NCBI GenBank assembly: GCA_029882915.1
Contig: JAOUJZ010000002.1
Location: 1-64,000, forward strand
Direction: 5' to 3'
Source: Gammaproteobacteria bacterium
Lineage (GTDB): Bacteria; Pseudomonadota; Gammaproteobacteria; Nitrosococcales; Methylophagaceae
Length of the DNA: 64,000 nt
In this document: positions 9,446-18,093 of the stretch, piece by piece
Position numbering within the stretch: the stretch's first letter is position 1
Layout: every line of letters starts with the position of its first letter
Translations under genes and position numbers: made by a program
Notes under the pieces: generated by a model
Told to the model about the DNA's origin: nothing
Seen by the model: the letters and a program-made list of their open reading frames with translations, nothing else
Database searches by the model: none

Positions 9446-9673
9446 TCACTTCTGTTTCCGTTCCTGTTCCCGTTCGACTTCATTTGATGTTTGTTCTGTC
9501 TTCTCAACTTCTGTGTCTGTAGGAGTATTAACCGGATCATCGTCCATCAAAATACGATTAGCCGATCCTTCCATATCATCATACTGACCACTTCGAACCG
9601 CCCAAAAAAATAGTCCTACCCCAATAATGCCAAGCAATAACATGCCAGGTAATAAACCATATATGACTTCCAT
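9446..9673 (-). CDS. ccoS: cbb3 oxidase maturation protein CcoS
   Basis: 75 residues from the ATG at 9673 (MEVIYGLLPGM). The frame is open further upstream, but AAGGAG overlapping the ccoI stop sits correctly for this ATG. One transmembrane helix (about 6-26) is followed by the family motif FFWAVRSGQYDDMEG and RILMDDD. The tail is long, charged and rich in Glu/Thr, longer than in many CcoS (50-70 residues). CcoS is needed for cofactor (heme/copper) insertion into CcoN. It is the last gene of the ccoGHIS assembly unit. Confidence 0.92.
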   Translation of the reverse strand: MEVIYGLLPGMLLLGIIGVGLFFWAVRSGQYDDMEGSANRILMDDDPVNTPTDTEVEKTEQTSNEVEREQERKQK

Positions 9674-9677
9674 TAGG

Positions 9678-12110
9678 CTACTCCTTAAAGAACCGTCGTA
9701 TTCTGGCAGCGTTTCCAATCACTAATAATGAACTGATCGGCATAGTCACCGCAGCAACTAATGGACTTACCATCGCCATCATCGCCAATGGCACCATAAT
9801 TACATTATAGCTAATCGATAACACTATATTTTGTTTAATAGTTCGTAGGGTTCTACTGGCTAATTGTCTCGCTTCAGCTACGCTATGCAAGTCATTATGT
9901 GATAACACAATATCAGCACTCTCAATTGATACATCCGTACCCGATGCCAGTGCGATACCAATATCGGCCTGGATCAAAGCTGGTGAATCATTCACTCCAT
10001 CCCCCACCATCGCCACCACAGCGCCTTGTTGCTGCAGCAATTTCACCTTTTCAGCTTTATCTTTAGGTAACACTTCCGCCTGACGTTCAATATCGCCTAA
10101 ATCAGCGGTTACAGCTGCAACAACAGATTTTTTATCACCACTTAATACCGTTATTTCAATAGCCTGTTGTTGCAAAGCAGCAATCATTGATTGCGCATCG
10201 CCACGTAATTGATCTGCTAAACCGATAAATCCTGATATCACACCATCAATTGCCACAAAGATACAACTAATGCCTTGCTGTTCCAGTTCTATCACCCGCT
10301 GCTGCCAAAGCTCCTGGCCTTCCACAGCTTGTGCTGATAACCAATTTTGAGTGCCCACAAGTACCTGCTTGTTATCCAACGTTGCCTGCACACCTTGACC
10401 AGGCGATGAAGAAAAGTCAGTAATGGGCAGTAAACTCATTTTCTGCTCAGATGCATGATTAGTAATAGCTTTAGCAATACCGTGTTCTGAGTGTTTTTCT
10501 ACCGATGCTGCCAAAATCAGTAAGTGATCATCCGATAATTCTGGCAATGCCTCAATATCCACAACCTGTAATTGTCCTTCTGTCAGGGTTCCTGTCTTAT
10601 CAAACACAAAATGGGTAGCCTTAGACAATAATTCCAATGCTGCACCTTGTTTGATCAAAATACCATTATTTGCACCAACACCTGTTGCGACGGCGACAGA
10701 CATAGGCGTAGCCAGACCAAATGCACATGGGCAGGTAATAATAAGCACTGACGTGGCTGCCAGTAATGCTTTCTCAAAATCAGTCTGATACCAGTAGGAA
10801 AATGTCAGTGCCGCCAATGACAGCGTGATAATTACAAACCATGGTACGATTCTATCTGCTGTACACTGAATCGGTGCTTTAGATGCCTGAGCATCCTCCA
10901 TCAAAGACACGATCTTAGCTAAGGCTGTATTTCTTAAAACCTGCTGTGCTTTTACTGTAAAAGCACCTTCTCCATTGATACTACCTGCAACAACAGTGTC
11001 ATTAATGGCTTTAGCAACAGGCAATGATTCACCCGTTAACATAGATTCATCTACAGCACTCTGACCATCAACTATCACGCCGTCTACTGGTATCTTTTCA
11101 CCCGGCTTCACTAACAATAGATCACCAATCGTCACTGAGCGAATAGGGACAACTTTAGGATGGCCATCTGTAATAACAGTAGCGAGTCTAGGCTGCAACT
11201 CTAATAACCGACGAGTTGCTGACAAGGCTTGTCGTTTTGAAATTGCTTCAAGATAACGTCCTACCAGTATCACAAACAGGAAATTAACTACAGTATCAAA
11301 ATAGACATCGCCAGTTGTTGCGCCAACTGCTGTTACATAAGTTGAATAACTGTAAGTAGCTGTTGCACCAATCGCTATCGGTAAGTCCATCGTCAAATAA
11401 CGTCGACGTAGCCCTAATATCGCATTACGTAGAAAGGGATAGCCTGAATAGAATAATGTCGGTGTAGCAATAAGAAAGCTTATCCAATGAAACCAGTTTC
11501 TAAACTCACCTTCGTCAGCTCCACTGTATAATGCAATGGTTATCCACATCAGATTCATCATCGCAAAACCAGCAAATGCCATCCGATAAAGTAAGGATCG
11601 ATGTCTTTGAGCCAGACCACCTTCAGCGGTTTCTGGATCAAAGGGAACAGCTGCATAACCTAGCTGTCCTAAGTCATAGAGGACTTCTGACAGCAAAATA
11701 ACTCGATTGTCCCATTTCAAGCGTAATCGTTTTGAAGTTAAATTAACTTCAGCGGAGATCACTCCTTTTATCCTTGCTAATCTGTGCTCAATCAACCATA
11801 CGCAGGCAGCACAATGAATGCCTTCAACTAATAAATGGATAGTTCGTATATCGTTAAGGGTATCGACATAATCGGACTGCACCTCATCTAGGTCATAGGA
11901 TACAAGTTCCGATGGCAACTCTGGGGGTGGGGCTAAGGTTTTCCCTTCTGGTGTTTTTTTGTAAAAACTTTCTAATCCAGAATTATAAATTGTCTGACAG
12001 ACTGTCTGGCAGCCAAAGCAGCAAAACTCACGCTGTTCGCCAGCCATATTCGCAGTAAAACTACCCTCCTGTTCAATGGGTAAGCCACAGTGATAACAAG
12101 TTATAGACAA
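9678..12110 (-). CDS. ccoI: Copper-translocating P1B-type ATPase CcoI
   Basis: 810 residues. The N-terminal cysteine-rich metal-binding region (CYHCG...CCFGCQTVC, residues about 5-42) is followed by an HMA domain with GIHCAAC (about 96-102). Then come eight expected membrane helices with the ion-binding CPC ([11 protein letters not shown]), the phosphorylation motif DKTGTLT, and the hinge [10 protein letters not shown]. This set is typical of the CcoI/FixI group, which exports copper for assembly of the cbb3 CuB site. The only plausible start is a TTG at 12110; an in-frame stop lies 6 nt further upstream. That suggests low expression, as expected for an assembly factor. There is a 72-nt gap to ccoH, and ccoS follows after 4 nt. 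Confidence 0.95.
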
Positions 12111-12182: not shown

Positions 12183-12686
12183 TTATGGCAAGATGCTAAC
12201 GCGTTTGGTTACAACAAATTCTTGCTCACCTTGTTTGGCGACAACAATCAGATCCCAGATACCAGGTAGGTTAAAACTAACATCAGAAACATACATACCC
12301 GGCATTTTTTTTGACATGTCTACCGAAAAATCAGCTTTAGCATCAGAGGGTCGGTAGGCATTAAATGTAACAGAATCTAAATTTAAACCTACAGAATTTC
12401 TACCCTGAATGAGCACCTCGTAACTTTGAACTTGATTAACCCGGGTATTTGCCGGCACCATAATCATACCGTTCCAACCCAACGATTTTTCCTGCTCAAT
12501 TCGTTTTTGGGTTTCTTCATAACGTTCACCACGTTCATAGAAGTCTTTGACAACTAGGTTAGGTGGTGATTTAAATGCAAGATAGATAAAAATAGCATTG
12601 GCAGTTAAAAAGACCATTAAAAATACCAGCATACCTAACACCCATGGATTTTTTAAAGCTTCACTGTTTTTTTGCGAAATATTCAT
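12183..12686 (-). CDS. ccoH: cbb3 oxidase assembly protein CcoH (FixH family)
   Basis: 167 residues with one N-terminal transmembrane helix (about 15-36; GMLVFLMVFLTANAIFIYLA) and a periplasmic FixH domain. Family features visible are NPWVLG before the helix, the NLVVKDFYERG segment directly after it, and the C-terminal beta-sandwich ending in PGIWDLIVVAKQG. CcoH associates with CcoP/CcoN during assembly of the oxidase. It begins 12 nt downstream of ccoG and is cotranscribed with it. Confidence 0.92.
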   Translation of the reverse strand: MNISQKNSEALKNPWVLGMLVFLMVFLTANAIFIYLAFKSPPNLVVKDFYERGERYEETQKRIEQEKSLGWNGMIMVPANTRVNQVQSYEVLIQGRNSVGLNLDSVTFNAYRPSDAKADFSVDMSKKMPGMYVSDVSFNLPGIWDLIVVAKQGEQEFVVTKRVSILP

Positions 12687-12698
12687 AATTTTCCCAAA

Positions 12699-14114
12699 TC
12701 ACTTTGGCCCTATAAACATACTTTTATAACGTACTGTTATATTCGAATTGGTTAAAACTTTTCCCTTAAATATGATTGGGACAAGACTCTTATTTAATTG
12801 TTCATCTGGAACGCGAACTAATGCCGTCACAGGAATCACCTTACCCGGCTCAACGGTCATTTCATTCAAGCCATGCAGAGTTGCACCTTCAAGTCCCTCA
12901 ATACTAAATCTGAGTGTCATGACCTCTTTCGTTTTATTCAACAATTTAACAGTATATTTATTTTGAATAGAACCATCACTTAATCGAACAAACACGGGCT
13001 GTCTATCATGTACCACCTTAAATTCGGTTGGTGATAGATTGGCAAAGCCATAAATAACGCCAGATAAAGCCGTCAGAAGAATCAAACTATAAATAATGAC
13101 TCTAGGTCGTTTATATAGTGGAACAGTCTTAGCGTTATGATGCAGTTCCTTATAGGATGCATAACGAATCAATCCTCTAGGCTGCTGGGTTTTATCCATA
13201 ATACTGTCGCAGGCATCTATACATATACCACAGGTAATACAGCCTTCTTGCTGACCTTTTCGTATATCAATTCCAGTAGGACAAACTGCCACACAAACAT
13301 TGCAATCGACACAACTTCCTTTTGATTGCTGATGTTGGCCTTTTTTTAACTTACCTCTAGGTTCACCACGCTCTGCGTCATAAGAGGGGAGTATCGTGTC
13401 TTGGTCATACATCACACCTTGCAATCGCGCATAAGGACATAACCAGAAACAGACCTGTTCACGCATAAAACCAGCAAAGCCATACGTGCCAGCAGTAAAC
13501 ATACCTAAAACAATCCAGGCAGGTAATGGTGCCTGCAAAGTAAAGTAGTCATACCAGAGCTTAAATGCATCAGTAAACCAGGCTGCGAACGAAACTCCTG
13601 TTAATAGAGCGATTGCTAACCACAAACTGTGTTTAGTAACTTTACGAACGAGCTTATCAAATGACCACGGCGAATTATTAAACTTCGTCGCCTTCTGTGG
13701 TGTATTACCTTCTAATTTGGCCTCTATTAATGTATAGATATCAGTCCACACTGTCTGGAAGCAAAAATAACCACAAAATACACGACCGGCAATGCTCGTG
13801 ACTGCTGCAAGCAAAATTGCAAAAAAGAGCAAGGTCAGCGATAACATCCAAATGTCTTGCGGATACACTGTAATATGAAAAAAATTAAACTGCCGATTAG
13901 GGAGATCAAACAAAATAGCCTGAGCACCATTCCAGCGCAGATAAGGACCTAGGAAGAAAACTAACCAGATAGACATTCCAAACCATTTAAGTCTGCGAAA
14001 ACGTCCTGCTAGCCGTTTAGCGACAATTTTAATACCACCTGTATTTACATGCCAGTCAGACACTTCGTCATAAATGTCGTCAACATTGGTAATTTTATTT
14101 GCTTCTTCGTTCAC
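12699..14114 (-). CDS. ccoG: Membrane iron-sulfur protein CcoG (RdxA/FixG)
   Basis: 471 residues, the usual length. Several transmembrane helices lie in the first 220 residues, with GRVFCGYFCFQTVW and CFWLCPYARLQG characteristic of the NapH/CcoG group. These are followed by two 4Fe-4S ferredoxin motifs (CVDCNVCVAVCP and CITCGICIDACD). The C-terminal part is an Ig-like periplasmic domain (FixG_C). CcoG is proposed to reduce Cu(II) for cbb3 assembly. The start is a GTG (14114) with a weak ribosome site. A strong terminator upstream (14211-14240) separates it from the structural operon, so ccoGHIS probably has its own promoter in the interval 14115-14210. Confidence 0.95.
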   Translation of the reverse strand: MNEEANKITNVDDIYDEVSDWHVNTGGIKIVAKRLAGRFRRLKWFGMSIWLVFFLGPYLRWNGAQAILFDLPNRQFNFFHITVYPQDIWMLSLTLLFFAILLAAVTSIAGRVFCGYFCFQTVWTDIYTLIEAKLEGNTPQKATKFNNSPWSFDKLVRKVTKHSLWLAIALLTGVSFAAWFTDAFKLWYDYFTLQAPLPAWIVLGMFTAGTYGFAGFMREQVCFWLCPYARLQGVMYDQDTILPSYDAERGEPRGKLKKGQHQQSKGSCVDCNVCVAVCPTGIDIRKGQQEGCITCGICIDACDSIMDKTQQPRGLIRYASYKELHHNAKTVPLYKRPRVIIYSLILLTALSGVIYGFANLSPTEFKVVHDRQPVFVRLSDGSIQNKYTVKLLNKTKEVMTLRFSIEGLEGATLHGLNEMTVEPGKVIPVTALVRVPDEQLNKSLVPIIFKGKVLTNSNITVRYKSMFIGPK

Positions 14115-14210
14115 ACATTCAAATTCTTAGCGGTAAAAACATATGGCATTGTACCATGGTTTTTTTAATATAATCATTTACTTATTAGTAAAGCAAGTCA
14201 GTTTTTTAAC

Positions 14211-14240
14211 AAAAAAGCCGGCAATAATGCCGGCTTTTTT
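14211..14240. terminator. Intrinsic terminator after the 38-codon ORF, before ccoG
   Basis: Perfect stem AAAAAAGCCGGC / GCCGGCTTTTTT with a 6-nt loop. T runs occur on both strands, so it can act in either direction. For leftward transcription it ends the unit ccoNOQP plus the small ORF. Confidence 0.9.
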
Positions 14241-14259
14241 GTATATCTTGTCATGAAAA

Positions 14260-14376
14260 TTAGTCGTCAGATTTATTGTCCATGTTTTTGATAATGTTAT
14301 AACCAATCACGGCACCGACAATGATAGTAATGACTACACTAGCAATAGTACCAATTACGACAGCATCAATTTGCAT
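14260..14376 (-). CDS. 38-residue single-helix membrane protein in the cbb3 operon (candidate CcoM-like subunit)
   Basis: Short ORF from ATG at 14376 to TAA at 14260-14262. A good ribosome site (TTAGGAG, 7 nt before the ATG) supports translation. The product starts MQIDAVVIG, has one hydrophobic helix (about residues 5-29) and ends in a charged tail KNMDNKSDD. It sits downstream of ccoP and upstream of ccoG, in the place where most gammaproteobacteria have nothing annotated. The cbb3 oxidase of Pseudomonas stutzeri contains a small one-helix subunit, CcoM, of about the same size, and the N-terminal MxxDxVV pattern is similar as I remember it. That identity is inference. It is followed by a terminator and preceded by a hairpin. 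Confidence 0.72.
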   Translation of the reverse strand: MQIDAVVIGTIASVVITIIVGAVIGYNIIKNMDNKSDD

Positions 14377-14397
14377 TTTTATACTCCTAACCGAAAA

Positions 14398-14419
14398 CCC
14401 CAGCTATGTTTAGCTGGGG
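14398..14419 (-). terminator. Hairpin with short T run between ccoP and the 38-codon ORF
   Basis: Perfect 9-bp stem CCCCAGCTA / TAGCTGGGG with a 4-nt loop. Read leftward it is followed by TTTT, so it can act as a partial terminator or a processing/stabilising stem that sets a lower or higher level of the small ORF relative to ccoNOQP. Confidence 0.7.
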
Positions 14420-14431
14420 CATCATTAATAA

Positions 14432-15391
14432 TTATTGACCACCACCAAATTGGTGAACATAAACAGCCAGCTTTTTAATTTCAGTTTCAGTTAATCGCTC
14501 GCCCTCATCGCCTTCTAACTCATCAGACCAATCAATATCATTAGGATCTTCATCGTCAGCAATAGCATCCGCTCTAACTTGTAGCATAATGGCTAGCTTT
14601 TCGCTCCATTGTGGCATTACTGCGACGCGCGTTTGTGGATCAGAAGCATCATTCACACCATGAAGAATTGTGTGACGAATTTGATCTTCATCACCAGAAA
14701 AGCGCCAGATTTTATCCGTCAAATTCGCAGATCCCATGGCCTTAATGCCTTTAGCATCAGCGCCATGACAAGCAAAACATCCTTTAGATGTGTATAAAGC
14801 CATGCCAGCTTCATTCTGTATGCCATTTGAACTATCTACAACAAACTTCACTAATTGATCCACTTCATCAGTATTAAGTAATTTTTCATGGGCAGGCATC
14901 ATTCCAGCACGACCCTTGGCAATACTCATCATTATATCGTTAACTGAACCACCAAATAACCAATCATCATCAGAAAGATTTGGGTAACCCGCACCTTCTG
15001 CTGGTGCACCACCAGTACCATGACAGGCAGCACAGTTGTCACCAAAAAGTACTTTACTTGAGCCAATGGCATAGTTCAGCATTTCTTGATCTGCCAGAAT
15101 CTCTTCGGCAGTCATTGCAGCTAGCTTATCCTCAAATGGAGCCCGCTTAGCTTCAACTTTTGCCAGATCTTCCTTGTACTCTTTGATCATAGTCCAGCCT
15201 AACAAGCCTTTTGTGCTTTCATTAACTAAAGGTAATGATGGATACAAAATAAAATACACAATAACCAGCAAGCCACTTAACCAAAGTGAATTTAACCACC
15301 AACGTGGGCATGGATTATTTAATTCCTTAATACCATCCCACTCATGGCCTGTGTCAGACACCTGATTAGGATTATTTTTATTATCTGCCAT
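14432..15391 (-). CDS. ccoP: cbb3 cytochrome oxidase diheme subunit CcoP
   Basis: 319 residues. The N-terminal cytoplasmic segment carries DGIKELNNPCPRWW, the CcoP signature, followed by a membrane helix (about 33-52). Two class I cytochrome c domains follow, with heme motifs CAACH (about residue 128) and CFACH (about 205) and distal methionines in GMMPAH and VAVMPQW. It is the electron-entry subunit of the high-affinity oxidase. A GGAG ribosome site overlaps the ccoQ stop. Upstream come ccoN, ccoO and ccoQ. Confidence 0.97.
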   Translation of the reverse strand: MADNKNNPNQVSDTGHEWDGIKELNNPCPRWWLNSLWLSGLLVIVYFILYPSLPLVNESTKGLLGWTMIKEYKEDLAKVEAKRAPFEDKLAAMTAEEILADQEMLNYAIGSSKVLFGDNCAACHGTGGAPAEGAGYPNLSDDDWLFGGSVNDIMMSIAKGRAGMMPAHEKLLNTDEVDQLVKFVVDSSNGIQNEAGMALYTSKGCFACHGADAKGIKAMGSANLTDKIWRFSGDEDQIRHTILHGVNDASDPQTRVAVMPQWSEKLAIMLQVRADAIADDEDPNDIDWSDELEGDEGERLTETEIKKLAVYVHQFGGGQ

Positions 15392-15392
15392 C

Positions 15393-15593
15393 TTAATTCT
15401 CCGCGTTCATCTCGTCATCGTTTATAGGCATGGTGCGATGTGACTCCAGACTTTCTTTATTTTTTGGATTATAAACCCAATAAAAGACTCCAATCATCAA
15501 CACAAAAATAACAACTGTTATCACCAGCCCAAACCAGTCTGTTCCGGTCATCGCACTCCAATCAGTATGAAAATACTCTTGAAGTTTAGTCAC
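15393..15593 (-). CDS. ccoQ: cbb3 oxidase small subunit CcoQ
   Basis: 66 residues with one transmembrane helix (about 20-42) and the FixQ/CcoQ-like sequence [18 protein letters not shown] just after it. It has a GTG start (15593) that overlaps the end of ccoO by 8 nt, and it stops 1 nt before the ccoP ATG. CcoQ helps keep the assembled complex stable. The N-terminus is about 10 residues longer than in many CcoQ. Confidence 0.9.
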
Positions 15594-16266
15594 GATAATC
15601 TCTGCCTGGCTCGAATTTAATCATAGTTCCTAATACCTGAAGGTAAGCAACTAAAGCCTGCATTTCAGTTTTCCCTTCAACTGATGCTGCCGCTGATTTA
15701 ATTTCTTCATCAGTGTATGGGACACCCAATACTTTCATTGCCTTCAAACGTTTCTCAATACCAGGACCGTTGATAGTTGCATCATCTAGCCATGGATAAC
15801 GAGGCATAACAGATTCAGGTACAACAGAACGTGGATCACGCAAATGTTGAATATGCCATGCGTCTGAATACTTACCGCCCAGACGAGCAATGTCTGGTCC
15901 AGTACGCTTAGAACCCCATTGGAAAGGATGATCATATTTAGATTCAACTGCTAGTGAATAATGACCATAACGATCTTTCTCATCACGGAAAGGACGAATC
16001 ATTTGAGAATGACACAAATAACACCCTTCACGTTGATATACATCCCGACCAGCCAACTCCAGTGCTGTATAGGGACGCACACCTGATAGCTCTTCATATT
16101 CAGGGTGAGCCTTGTCTTCAAAGGTAGTATCAAGATAGAACAGTGGCACAATTTCCACGATACCACCTACTGACACAATAATGGCTGTTGCCAAAATCAG
16201 TGCCCAGATATTTTTTTCCAGTTTTTCCTGAAAGGTTACTGGTTCATTTGAATTATGATTAGACAT
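15586..16266 (-). CDS. ccoO: cbb3 oxidase monoheme subunit CcoO
   Basis: 226 residues. It has an N-terminal membrane anchor (about 17-40), the conserved [23 protein letters not shown] with its c-type heme motif CYLCH (about residue 82), and the axial Met in SVMPRYPWL. It accepts electrons from CcoP and passes them to CcoN. AAAGGAG lies before the ATG. The gene starts 11 nt after ccoN. Confidence 0.97.
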
Positions 16267-16277
16267 GCCAGTCTCCT

Positions 16278-17702
16278 TTAAATGCTAGCTGCAGTTGCCA
16301 TCTGTGGAGATGGGTTAGCAATGGCTTTACGAATGGTTACAGTAATGTTGTACAACATCACACAGGCACCTAGGAAGAAGATCAAGCCGCCTGCTGCACG
16401 CATTGCATAATACGGATGCATTTGAGCAACTGACTCTACAAACGTATAAGCCAAGTTACCGTAATCGTCGTAAGCACGCCACATTAGACCCTGCATGATG
16501 CCAGAGACCCACATCGCAGTGATGTATATAGCAGTACCAATGGTCGCCATCCAGAAGTGTAAGTTAACTAATTTAACTGAGTAAATAGTCGTGCCCCAGA
16601 GGCGTTCTACCATGTGATAAATCGCACCAATAGAAACCATTGCCACCCAGCCTAATGCACCTGCATGTACGTGACCGATAGTCCAATCAGTATAATGTGA
16701 CAAGGCATTAACAGTTTTTGATGACATAACCGGACCTTCAAAGGTCGACATGGCATAGAAAGCCAGCGACACAATCAGGAACCGCAAAATATAGTCGGTA
16801 CGCAATTTATCCCATGCACCACTTAAGGTAAACATACCGTTAATCGCACCACCCCATGAAGGAATGATCATCGCTAATGAAATAGCCGCGCCAAGCGAAC
16901 CTGTCCAGTCTGGTAATGCTGTGTATTGTAGATGGTGAGCACCTAACCATACATAACCGAATGTGAGTGCCCAGAAATGAACTACTGATAAGCGGTATGA
17001 ATAAACAGGGCGATTAGCTTGCTTAGGAACAAAATAATACATGATGCCAAGGAAGCCAGCTGTCAGGAAGAAACCAACTGCATTATGGCCCCACCACCAT
17101 TGAATCATTGCATCTTGTACGCCAGCAAAGATTGAGTAGGATTTAAACAGTTCAACCGGAATAGCCAGACTGTTCACAACATGCAGATAAGTCACCATAA
17201 TCATCATTGCTAGGAAGAACCAGTTAGCAACATAGATATGTGAAACCTTGCGGATAGATAAGGTCATAATGAAGTTAAAGCTATATGCCAACCAGACAAC
17301 TGCAATTAGAATATCTAATGGCCATTCCAGTTCAGCATATTCTTTCGCTTGTGTGATACCTAATGGTAGCGAAATTACAGCACCGACGATAACAAGATTC
17401 CAGCCCCAAAACGTGAACCACGCCAGTTTATCACTCCACAATCGCACACCAGATGTACGCTGCACTATGTAATAAGCTGTTGCCATTAGCGTCGAGCCAC
17501 CAAACGCAAAAATAACCGCATTAGTGTGTAATGGACGTAATCGCCCAAAACTAATGTATGGATTATCAAAGTTCAAAACTGGCCAAGCCAATTCTGAAGC
17601 TATGTATACACCGATACCGGTACCGACTACCAAATAGACAACCGCCATATAGGCGAACCATTTGACTATTTCAAAACTGTATTGCTGTTGTTCCGCTTGC
17701 AT
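16278..17702 (-). CDS. ccoN: cbb3 cytochrome oxidase catalytic subunit CcoN
   Basis: 474 residues from the ATG at 17702 ([11 protein letters not shown]). The frame is open for 7 more codons, but AAGG is well placed for this ATG. About 12 membrane helices. The heme and CuB histidines are visible in [24 protein letters not shown] and [12 protein letters not shown], and the catalytic Tyr region in [12 protein letters not shown]. It reduces oxygen at very low concentration and pumps protons. It is the first gene of ccoNOQP. The upstream 390 bp carry a perfect palindrome (17834-17858) that could bind an FNR/Anr-like oxygen regulator. Confidence 0.97.
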
Positions 17703-18093
17703 AGCGATCACACCTTCTCTCAATGAAAAAACCTATCGCCACTTTATGTCTATCTTGGTGGCGACCCATTCCATCACGCTTAAATCAATAAAGCTCACTG
17801 TAATACACAAATTATTTTTGTCAGTTTTTACTGATTGTTTGATTTTAGATCAAACAATACGTCATAAGCCCTAACTAATCGTTATTTGCCTTATTCATAC
17901 ACGTAGACAGCAATTGTCCTCACTTCAATCTCAGAGGTCAAGCACCAATAAAACAGACCTTTTTTATCTGATTTAAAATCTCTCAGTAAATCATAATTTT
18001 ATAGCAATAACAGATAAAATATTTACCTATTAATAAACCATATAATATGTAGTGGATTGGCTGGTTTGCGTTGTATTTGAAGTGGTTAAAGGC
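17703..18093. other. Intergenic region upstream of ccoN
   Basis: About 390 bp without a convincing gene, between the Mth938-like gene and ccoN. The only clear structure is the 25-bp palindrome at 17834-17858. A -10-like AATAAT at about 17812-17817 (minus strand) lies at the distance expected for an activator bound at the palindrome. The rest is AT-rich with no repeat, tRNA or terminator that I can see. Confidence 0.6.
17834..17858 (-). promoter_or_regulatory. Perfect inverted repeat, candidate FNR/Anr-type operator of ccoNOQP
   Basis: Arms ATTGTTTGAT and ATCAAACAAT are perfect 10-bp inverted repeats around the 5-nt centre TTTAG. The inner TTGAT...ATCAA halves are those of FNR/Anr sites, but FNR sites have a 4-nt centre and this one has 5. 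It lies about 145 nt before the ccoN start codon, and a -10-like AATAAT lies about 31 nt downstream of its centre, the class II activator geometry. An operator is likely; the regulator is inferred. Confidence 0.55.

Follow-up and report, generated by a model that had tools for sequence, protein, structure and literature searches.

The cbb3 oxidase is the high-affinity oxidase of microaerobic respiration, and models of it rest on CcoNOP together with CcoQ. A further small subunit, CcoM, is the subject of a 2016 paper by Kohlstaedt. One source, in its accessible portion, presents CcoM as a subunit with a single helix, required for stability and dispensable for activity, and regards it as occurring in some Pseudomonas (PMC8267372). 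The extra helices of the Rhodobacter capsulatus supercomplex have been attributed to CcoH and cytochrome cy; the available part of that source leaves CcoM unmentioned (PMC7876108); as far as this part goes, the assignment implies that the extra cbb3 helices differ between lineages. Our literature search found no operon-encoded CcoM outside Pseudomonas; with subscription journals outside its coverage, this is weak evidence of absence.

The DNA analysed here, referred to throughout as the window, is a stretch of 64,000 nucleotides that carries a cco operon on its minus strand in the order ccoN, ccoO, ccoQ, ccoP, small open reading frame (ORF), ccoG, ccoH, ccoI, ccoS. Upstream of the small ORF, which is on the same strand, lie ccoN (16278 to 17723; TIGR00780, 679 bits; start codon unsettled, with TTG taken mechanically), ccoO, or FixO (15586 to 16266; TIGR00781, 282.8 bits), ccoQ, or FixQ, which encodes the other one-helix subunit (15393 to 15593; PF05545, 31.7 bits, above cut-off), and ccoP, or FixP, for the diheme subunit (14432 to 15391; TIGR00782, 249.2 bits; PF14715). 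Downstream of it are ccoG (12699 to 14114; TIGR02745, 456.5 bits), ccoH, or FixH (12183 to 12686; PF05751, 79 bits), a ccoI-type copper P-type ATPase gene (9678 to 12110; TIGR01511, 540.3 bits; PF12156) and ccoS (9446 to 9718; TIGR00847, 59.4 bits).

The small ORF itself, MQIDAVVIGTIASVVITIIVGAVIGYNIIKNMDNKSDD, has 38 codons and runs from 14376 to 14260 on the minus strand between ccoP and ccoG, with its ATG start codon at 14376-14374, its stop codon at 14262-14260, and a gap of 55 bases separating it from the ccoP stop. We annotate its product as a putative CcoM-like one-helix membrane protein on the basis of kept place, purifying selection and similarity to the CcoM profile. A preliminary description of this DNA, which gave no strand, had reported an ORF of 38 residues here, with a good ribosome site, one hydrophobic helix and a charged tail, at the ccoP/ccoG junction of a cbb3 operon. 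All of these points hold: the coordinates are correct, family profiles confirm the neighbours, and the tail is indeed charged. The ribosome site is a Shine-Dalgarno AGGAG on the minus strand (14388-14384), read from the sequence and of AGGAG or GGAG type in nearly all relatives; the product has a single hydrophobic segment, which AlphaFold2 models as one helix over residues 5-36 (mean pLDDT 88.4). Among the 162 ATG-started ORFs of 30-50 amino acids in the window, two have a strong Shine-Dalgarno sequence, and of these two only the small ORF in the cco operon encodes a membrane helix.

The small ORF is real, and its kind is conserved in many bacteria, marine ones among them. Its home family, named Methylophagaceae from named matches, was represented by 57 searched genomes, 52 of them with ccoP, and the stretch 3' of ccoP was read in all of these except G330 (ccoP split over contigs), 51 in total. 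With one count per genome, and with loci L059 and L273 (contig ends) set aside, an ORF of this type stands immediately 3' of ccoP in 45 of the 49 readable genomes. Named relatives (13 loci from 58 pattern matches) occur in Methylophaga aminisulfidivorans (strain MP), M. sulfidovorans, M. thiooxydans (strain DMS010) and a number of MAGs placed in Methylophaga or Methylophagaceae. In the four genomes without the ORF (G003, G011, G013 and G016; loci L270, L278, L281 and L282), ccoP is more divergent, at 57-68% identity, ccoG follows after a short gap, and the operon has perhaps been replaced. A single-sequence search matched the small ORF in 20 of 59 relatives at E <= 1; many members of a second subtype (MNxDWVxxSVIxSVxAMI...) were missed by it and were revealed by position.

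The preliminary description had proposed that conservation in relatives and the ratio of nonsynonymous to synonymous change would decide whether the ORF is coding, and both came out in its favour. The ORF, its start and its place are kept in the home family, and synonymous exceed nonsynonymous differences: 18 to 2 against the nearest relative (L035), 20 to 4 against L041, and 13.5 to 7.5 against L040. For the 369 pairs whose dS is below 1.5, dN/dS has a median of 0.34 and reaches 1.38 at most; the full set of 989 usable pairs, many of them near synonymous saturation, has a median pN/pS of 0.48. These data show that the small ORF is protein-coding DNA under purifying selection.

Beyond the home family, the A1 profile matched in 51 of 369 sampled Gammaproteobacteria at the loose threshold of E <= 0.1, and of 24 loci from this search whose context was established, 19 lie between ccoP and ccoG and five elsewhere (L063, L076, L080, L083 and L087). 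Adding to those 19 the window itself and two loci found by reading ccoP-ccoG gaps (L210 and L222), a CcoM-like ORF occupies the ccoP/ccoG junction in at least 22 of the 369 sampled genomes, from 15 families. Good-looking stand-alone CcoM-like ORFs were seen away from cco genes at L063:1501-1617 (minus strand) and L083:1501-1590 (plus strand), and the genome of the latter, G165, has an operon copy as well.

In a phylum-wide sample, the A2 profile matched in 37 of 299 genomes at E <= 0.01, mostly within one family (f201), where one locus and a named Mariprofundus MAG encode identical proteins (L292, L311). All 19 fetched loci of this family adjoin both ccoP and ccoG. Profile matches occur in 28 of its 74 genomes and ccoP in 41. 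Among its 24 genomes with a canonical ccoP, the match falls within 80 bases of ccoP in 20 by coordinates, and reading of the other four revealed a divergent member (MDAVE[IL]GV...), so that all 24 carry the ORF directly after ccoP. The 17 divergent ccoP genes of the family, judged by coordinates only, have no adjacent match.

The likeness of the N-terminus (MQIDAVVIG) to CcoM, remarked on in the preliminary description, extends to the profile level. NF041600 (CcoM) is the sole NCBIfam match of the window protein, at 13.9 bits and E 0.054, and it is collinear (residues 1-32 on model positions 1-32 of 34); because the curated NCBI cut-off of 40 bits lies above this score, the small ORF is not classed as a CcoM equivalog. 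Within the close set, CcoM tops the NCBIfam matches, with 6 of 15 members and a best E of 1.4e-4, and among the wider-family proteins scanned it was matched by only one of six, at E 0.25. Of the 274 class genomes sampled, one scores above the NF041600 cut-off, as do 43 of 59 genomes in the family to which it belongs, and the CcoM of that one genome matches 5djq chain N at E 6.8e-16. Searches of the PDB with the window protein and the A1 profile gave no CcoM match among solved structures.

Aligned by hhalign against 24 distinct Pseudomonadaceae CcoM sequences, the home group gave a probability of 94.35 and a score of 32.64 over 36 of 36 columns, without gaps and at 33% identity. Column-permuted CcoM was as good as the real profile in 0 of 300 trials, whether helix columns or all columns were permuted, and a fuller home set gave 93.98%, again with 0 of 300 permutations as good. 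The wider set reaches 77.06% and the Mariprofundus-type set 55.93%, and for each of them a single one of 300 helix permutations did as well; such nulls control only partly for compositional likeness among one-helix proteins. The home, wider and Mariprofundus-type groups align with each other at 98% or more. Taken together, these scores link the home group well to CcoM, and the other groups mainly through the home group. Control profiles gave 16.7% (CcoQ), 2.3% (CcoH), 0.7% (CcoP N-terminus) and 1.95% (DUF3149-like) against the home group.

Residue by residue, the small ORF product and CcoM share Asp4, Val6, small residues at positions 9 and 13, and Val14, and the CcoM rows mostly begin M[FY][IV]DxVV[LI]. 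In CcoM, 23 of 24 sequences have a Lys or Arg 26 residues past the Asp, and so do all 43 home, 15 of the 22 wider and 11 of the 16 Mariprofundus-type sequences; since these rows were anchored on the first Asp, the count of an invariant Asp is partly built in, and unanchored alignments show the Asp too. No single conserved helix face was found (p 0.47). In Pseudomonadaceae, all 26 CcoM loci searched were free of cco genes to a distance of 1.5 kb, which bears out the earlier remark that ccoM lies outside the cco operon in Pseudomonas; the only tblastn match, to ccoQ at L247, overlaps CcoM itself.

The CcoM-related identity of the small ORF is the most likely one, and we hold it probable, on the strength of sequence comparison, that the gene encodes an operon-borne, CcoM-related structural subunit of cbb3 oxidase that stabilises CcoNOP. 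The preliminary description had offered such a subunit as one of two readings; it is supported by the kept ORF, start and place, by dN/dS, and by profile similarity to CcoM above two permutation nulls and above the other one-helix cbb3 proteins. The product would span the membrane once, with the N-terminus and the invariant Asp4 facing the periplasm and with K30 and the tail on the cytoplasmic side, an orientation suggested by the lysine that follows the helix (positive-inside rule). The helix would pack on the CcoNOP core at the site that CcoM takes in Pseudomonas stutzeri. Given its relation to CcoM and its genomic place, the protein would have the same stabilising role, acting on the assembled complex and taking no part in catalysis.

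The second reading was a new small assembly factor, taken here as a transient one, similar to CcoH or CcoS, that would help to insert or join CcoP and then leave the finished complex. One helix with a short tail would also fit it, and the assembly genes do come directly after the small ORF. However, a terminator stands between. As noted in the preliminary description, a hairpin flanks the ORF on each side, and both, on the minus strand, have terminator-like scores: one in the ccoP/small-ORF gap (14397 to 14420; 10 bp, loop of 4, T-rich 3' side) and an intrinsic terminator in the small-ORF/ccoG gap (14209 to 14242; 15 bp, loop of 4), together 2 observed against 0.3 in shuffles. By rule, 41 of the 45 loci from the home family have the terminator before ccoG, against 0.05 in shuffles, and the remaining four have near-miss terminators by eye. 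This count comes from a revised rule, rerun with shuffles; a stricter rule gave 20 of 45, an undercount, because the stems extend into A and T tracts. Hairpins of at least 6 bp in the ccoP/small-ORF gap occur in 23 of the 45 relatives, against 3.15 in shuffles, and the stem sequences of the flanking hairpins vary among relatives. Our results place the small ORF at the end of the structural genes ccoN-ccoO-ccoQ-ccoP, with a conserved intrinsic terminator between it and the assembly genes ccoG-H-I-S. Because the terminator joins the small ORF to the structural genes, and because its profile fits CcoM and not CcoH (94 versus 2.3), we regard the assembly factor as the less probable reading, although it is the strongest of the alternatives.

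The conserved terminator groups the small ORF with ccoNOQP and suggests that ccoG-H-I-S are dosed separately; together with the upstream hairpin, it would keep the dosage of the putative CcoM-like subunit with ccoNOQP and not with ccoG-H-I-S. A promoter scan gave no match on the window's minus strand. The window also has no perfect FNR box TTGATNNNNATCAA, and sites with one mismatch number 11 against 5.45 expected. Upstream of ccoG, at the place that corresponds to 14115-14208 of the window, several relatives have in common, by eye, a TCTAATATTGA-like stretch with TATAAT behind it, which perhaps represents a separate ccoG promoter.

A further alternative is a leader peptide linking translation to the terminator before ccoG, and the small ORF does immediately precede that terminator. 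What is conserved, however, is the protein sequence, which is under purifying selection and kept across two classes, and some copies stand away from cco genes (L063, L083); we consider this explanation improbable. A second, divergent copy of CcoQ is slightly less probable still: CcoQ is also a one-helix protein and ranks second among the profile matches, at 16.7 to 41%, but the window and most of the loci shown have a ccoQ of their own, the hhalign match of 16.7% spans 19 columns against 36 for CcoM, and the window protein has no PF05545 match. That the ORF is non-coding and arose by chance, as its shortness and the want of an above-cut-off match in two family libraries might suggest, can be dismissed, given its kept start, ribosome site, length and place, the 18 synonymous differences against 2, and a combination of strong Shine-Dalgarno sequence and helix that is unique among the window's ATG-started ORFs of 30-50 amino acids.

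DUF3149 (PF11346) was rejected as an identity for the window protein, which has no PF11346 match, in keeping with the hhalign value against the home group; PF11346 matches occur in 2 of 15 relatives (best E 0.046), and the DUF3149-like profile reaches 39.7% against the wider group. Pfam scans of the window protein and its relatives gave sub-threshold one-helix matches only, and no match was found in the viral contigs and plasmids searched.

The CcoM-like ORF is not universal, and the ccoP-ccoG gap holds other small proteins as well. We examined 148 class loci upstream of ccoG genes, which are not a random sample because only listed, best-scoring matches were included (without G276:C35, with 137 bases upstream, and G351:C180); ccoP lies upstream in 136. 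By a rule based on regular expressions, which misses some cases and was applied to a sample that favours other ccoG lineages, these 136 gaps contain a CcoM-like ORF in 9, a two-helix protein in 38, a DUF3149-like protein in 3 and another small membrane ORF in 10, and no such ORF in 76. The two-helix protein is unannotated, has about 85-100 amino acids and carries a motif like IPxxQRxIAVLWPSFLxAGxATxxFFxxFDP; its loci include L090, L095, L096, L099 and L102, and three more were recognised by eye (L108, L114 and L115). One example was scanned and had no Pfam or NCBIfam match, and the protein occurs in 0 of the 9 loci carrying a CcoM-like ORF. DUF3149-like one-helix ORFs were seen in the gap at L106, L109, L116 and L167, and DUF3149 may be another small cbb3 protein. 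In two f201 genomes with divergent ccoP (G532 and G643), a one-helix ORF of 63-64 amino acids lies immediately 5' of ccoN (L319:586-777; L320, reverse strand, 724-918) and is a weak A2 match; it may be another kind of small subunit, encoded at the opposite end of the operon.

A broader reading, to which we give about even odds, is that CcoM, far from being peculiar to Pseudomonas, is an old standard structural subunit of a large cbb3 branch, comprising Gammaproteobacteria and Zetaproteobacteria, encoded last in ccoN-O-Q-P-M and overlooked because it is small; Pseudomonadaceae would have moved the gene out, and other lineages would have swapped in other small membrane proteins at its place. Should the CcoM-like family hold, one more unannotated gene is present in many of the oxidase operons already sequenced, the sequence could serve to assign extra helices in future maps, and CcoM function could be tested where its gene is operon-encoded.

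Compared with the known small proteins of this oxidase, CcoQ/FixQ (PF05545) resembles the small ORF product as a one-helix protein of the same operon, but it is a separate gene there and its profile match is weak and short. DUF3149 is a one-helix protein of about 40 residues, and a few other genomes have DUF3149-like ORFs between ccoP and ccoG; it differs in its motif, LLxGSxxGxxSL. CcoM (NF041600; PDB 5djq chain N, Pseudomonas stutzeri) shares with the small ORF a length of about 36-38 residues, one helix, an MxxDxVV start, a Lys or Arg 26 residues after the Asp, and a profile alignment without gaps. The two differ in gene location, within the cco operon for the small ORF and away from cco genes for Pseudomonadaceae ccoM, and in the tail, which is acidic in the small ORF product and basic in CcoM.
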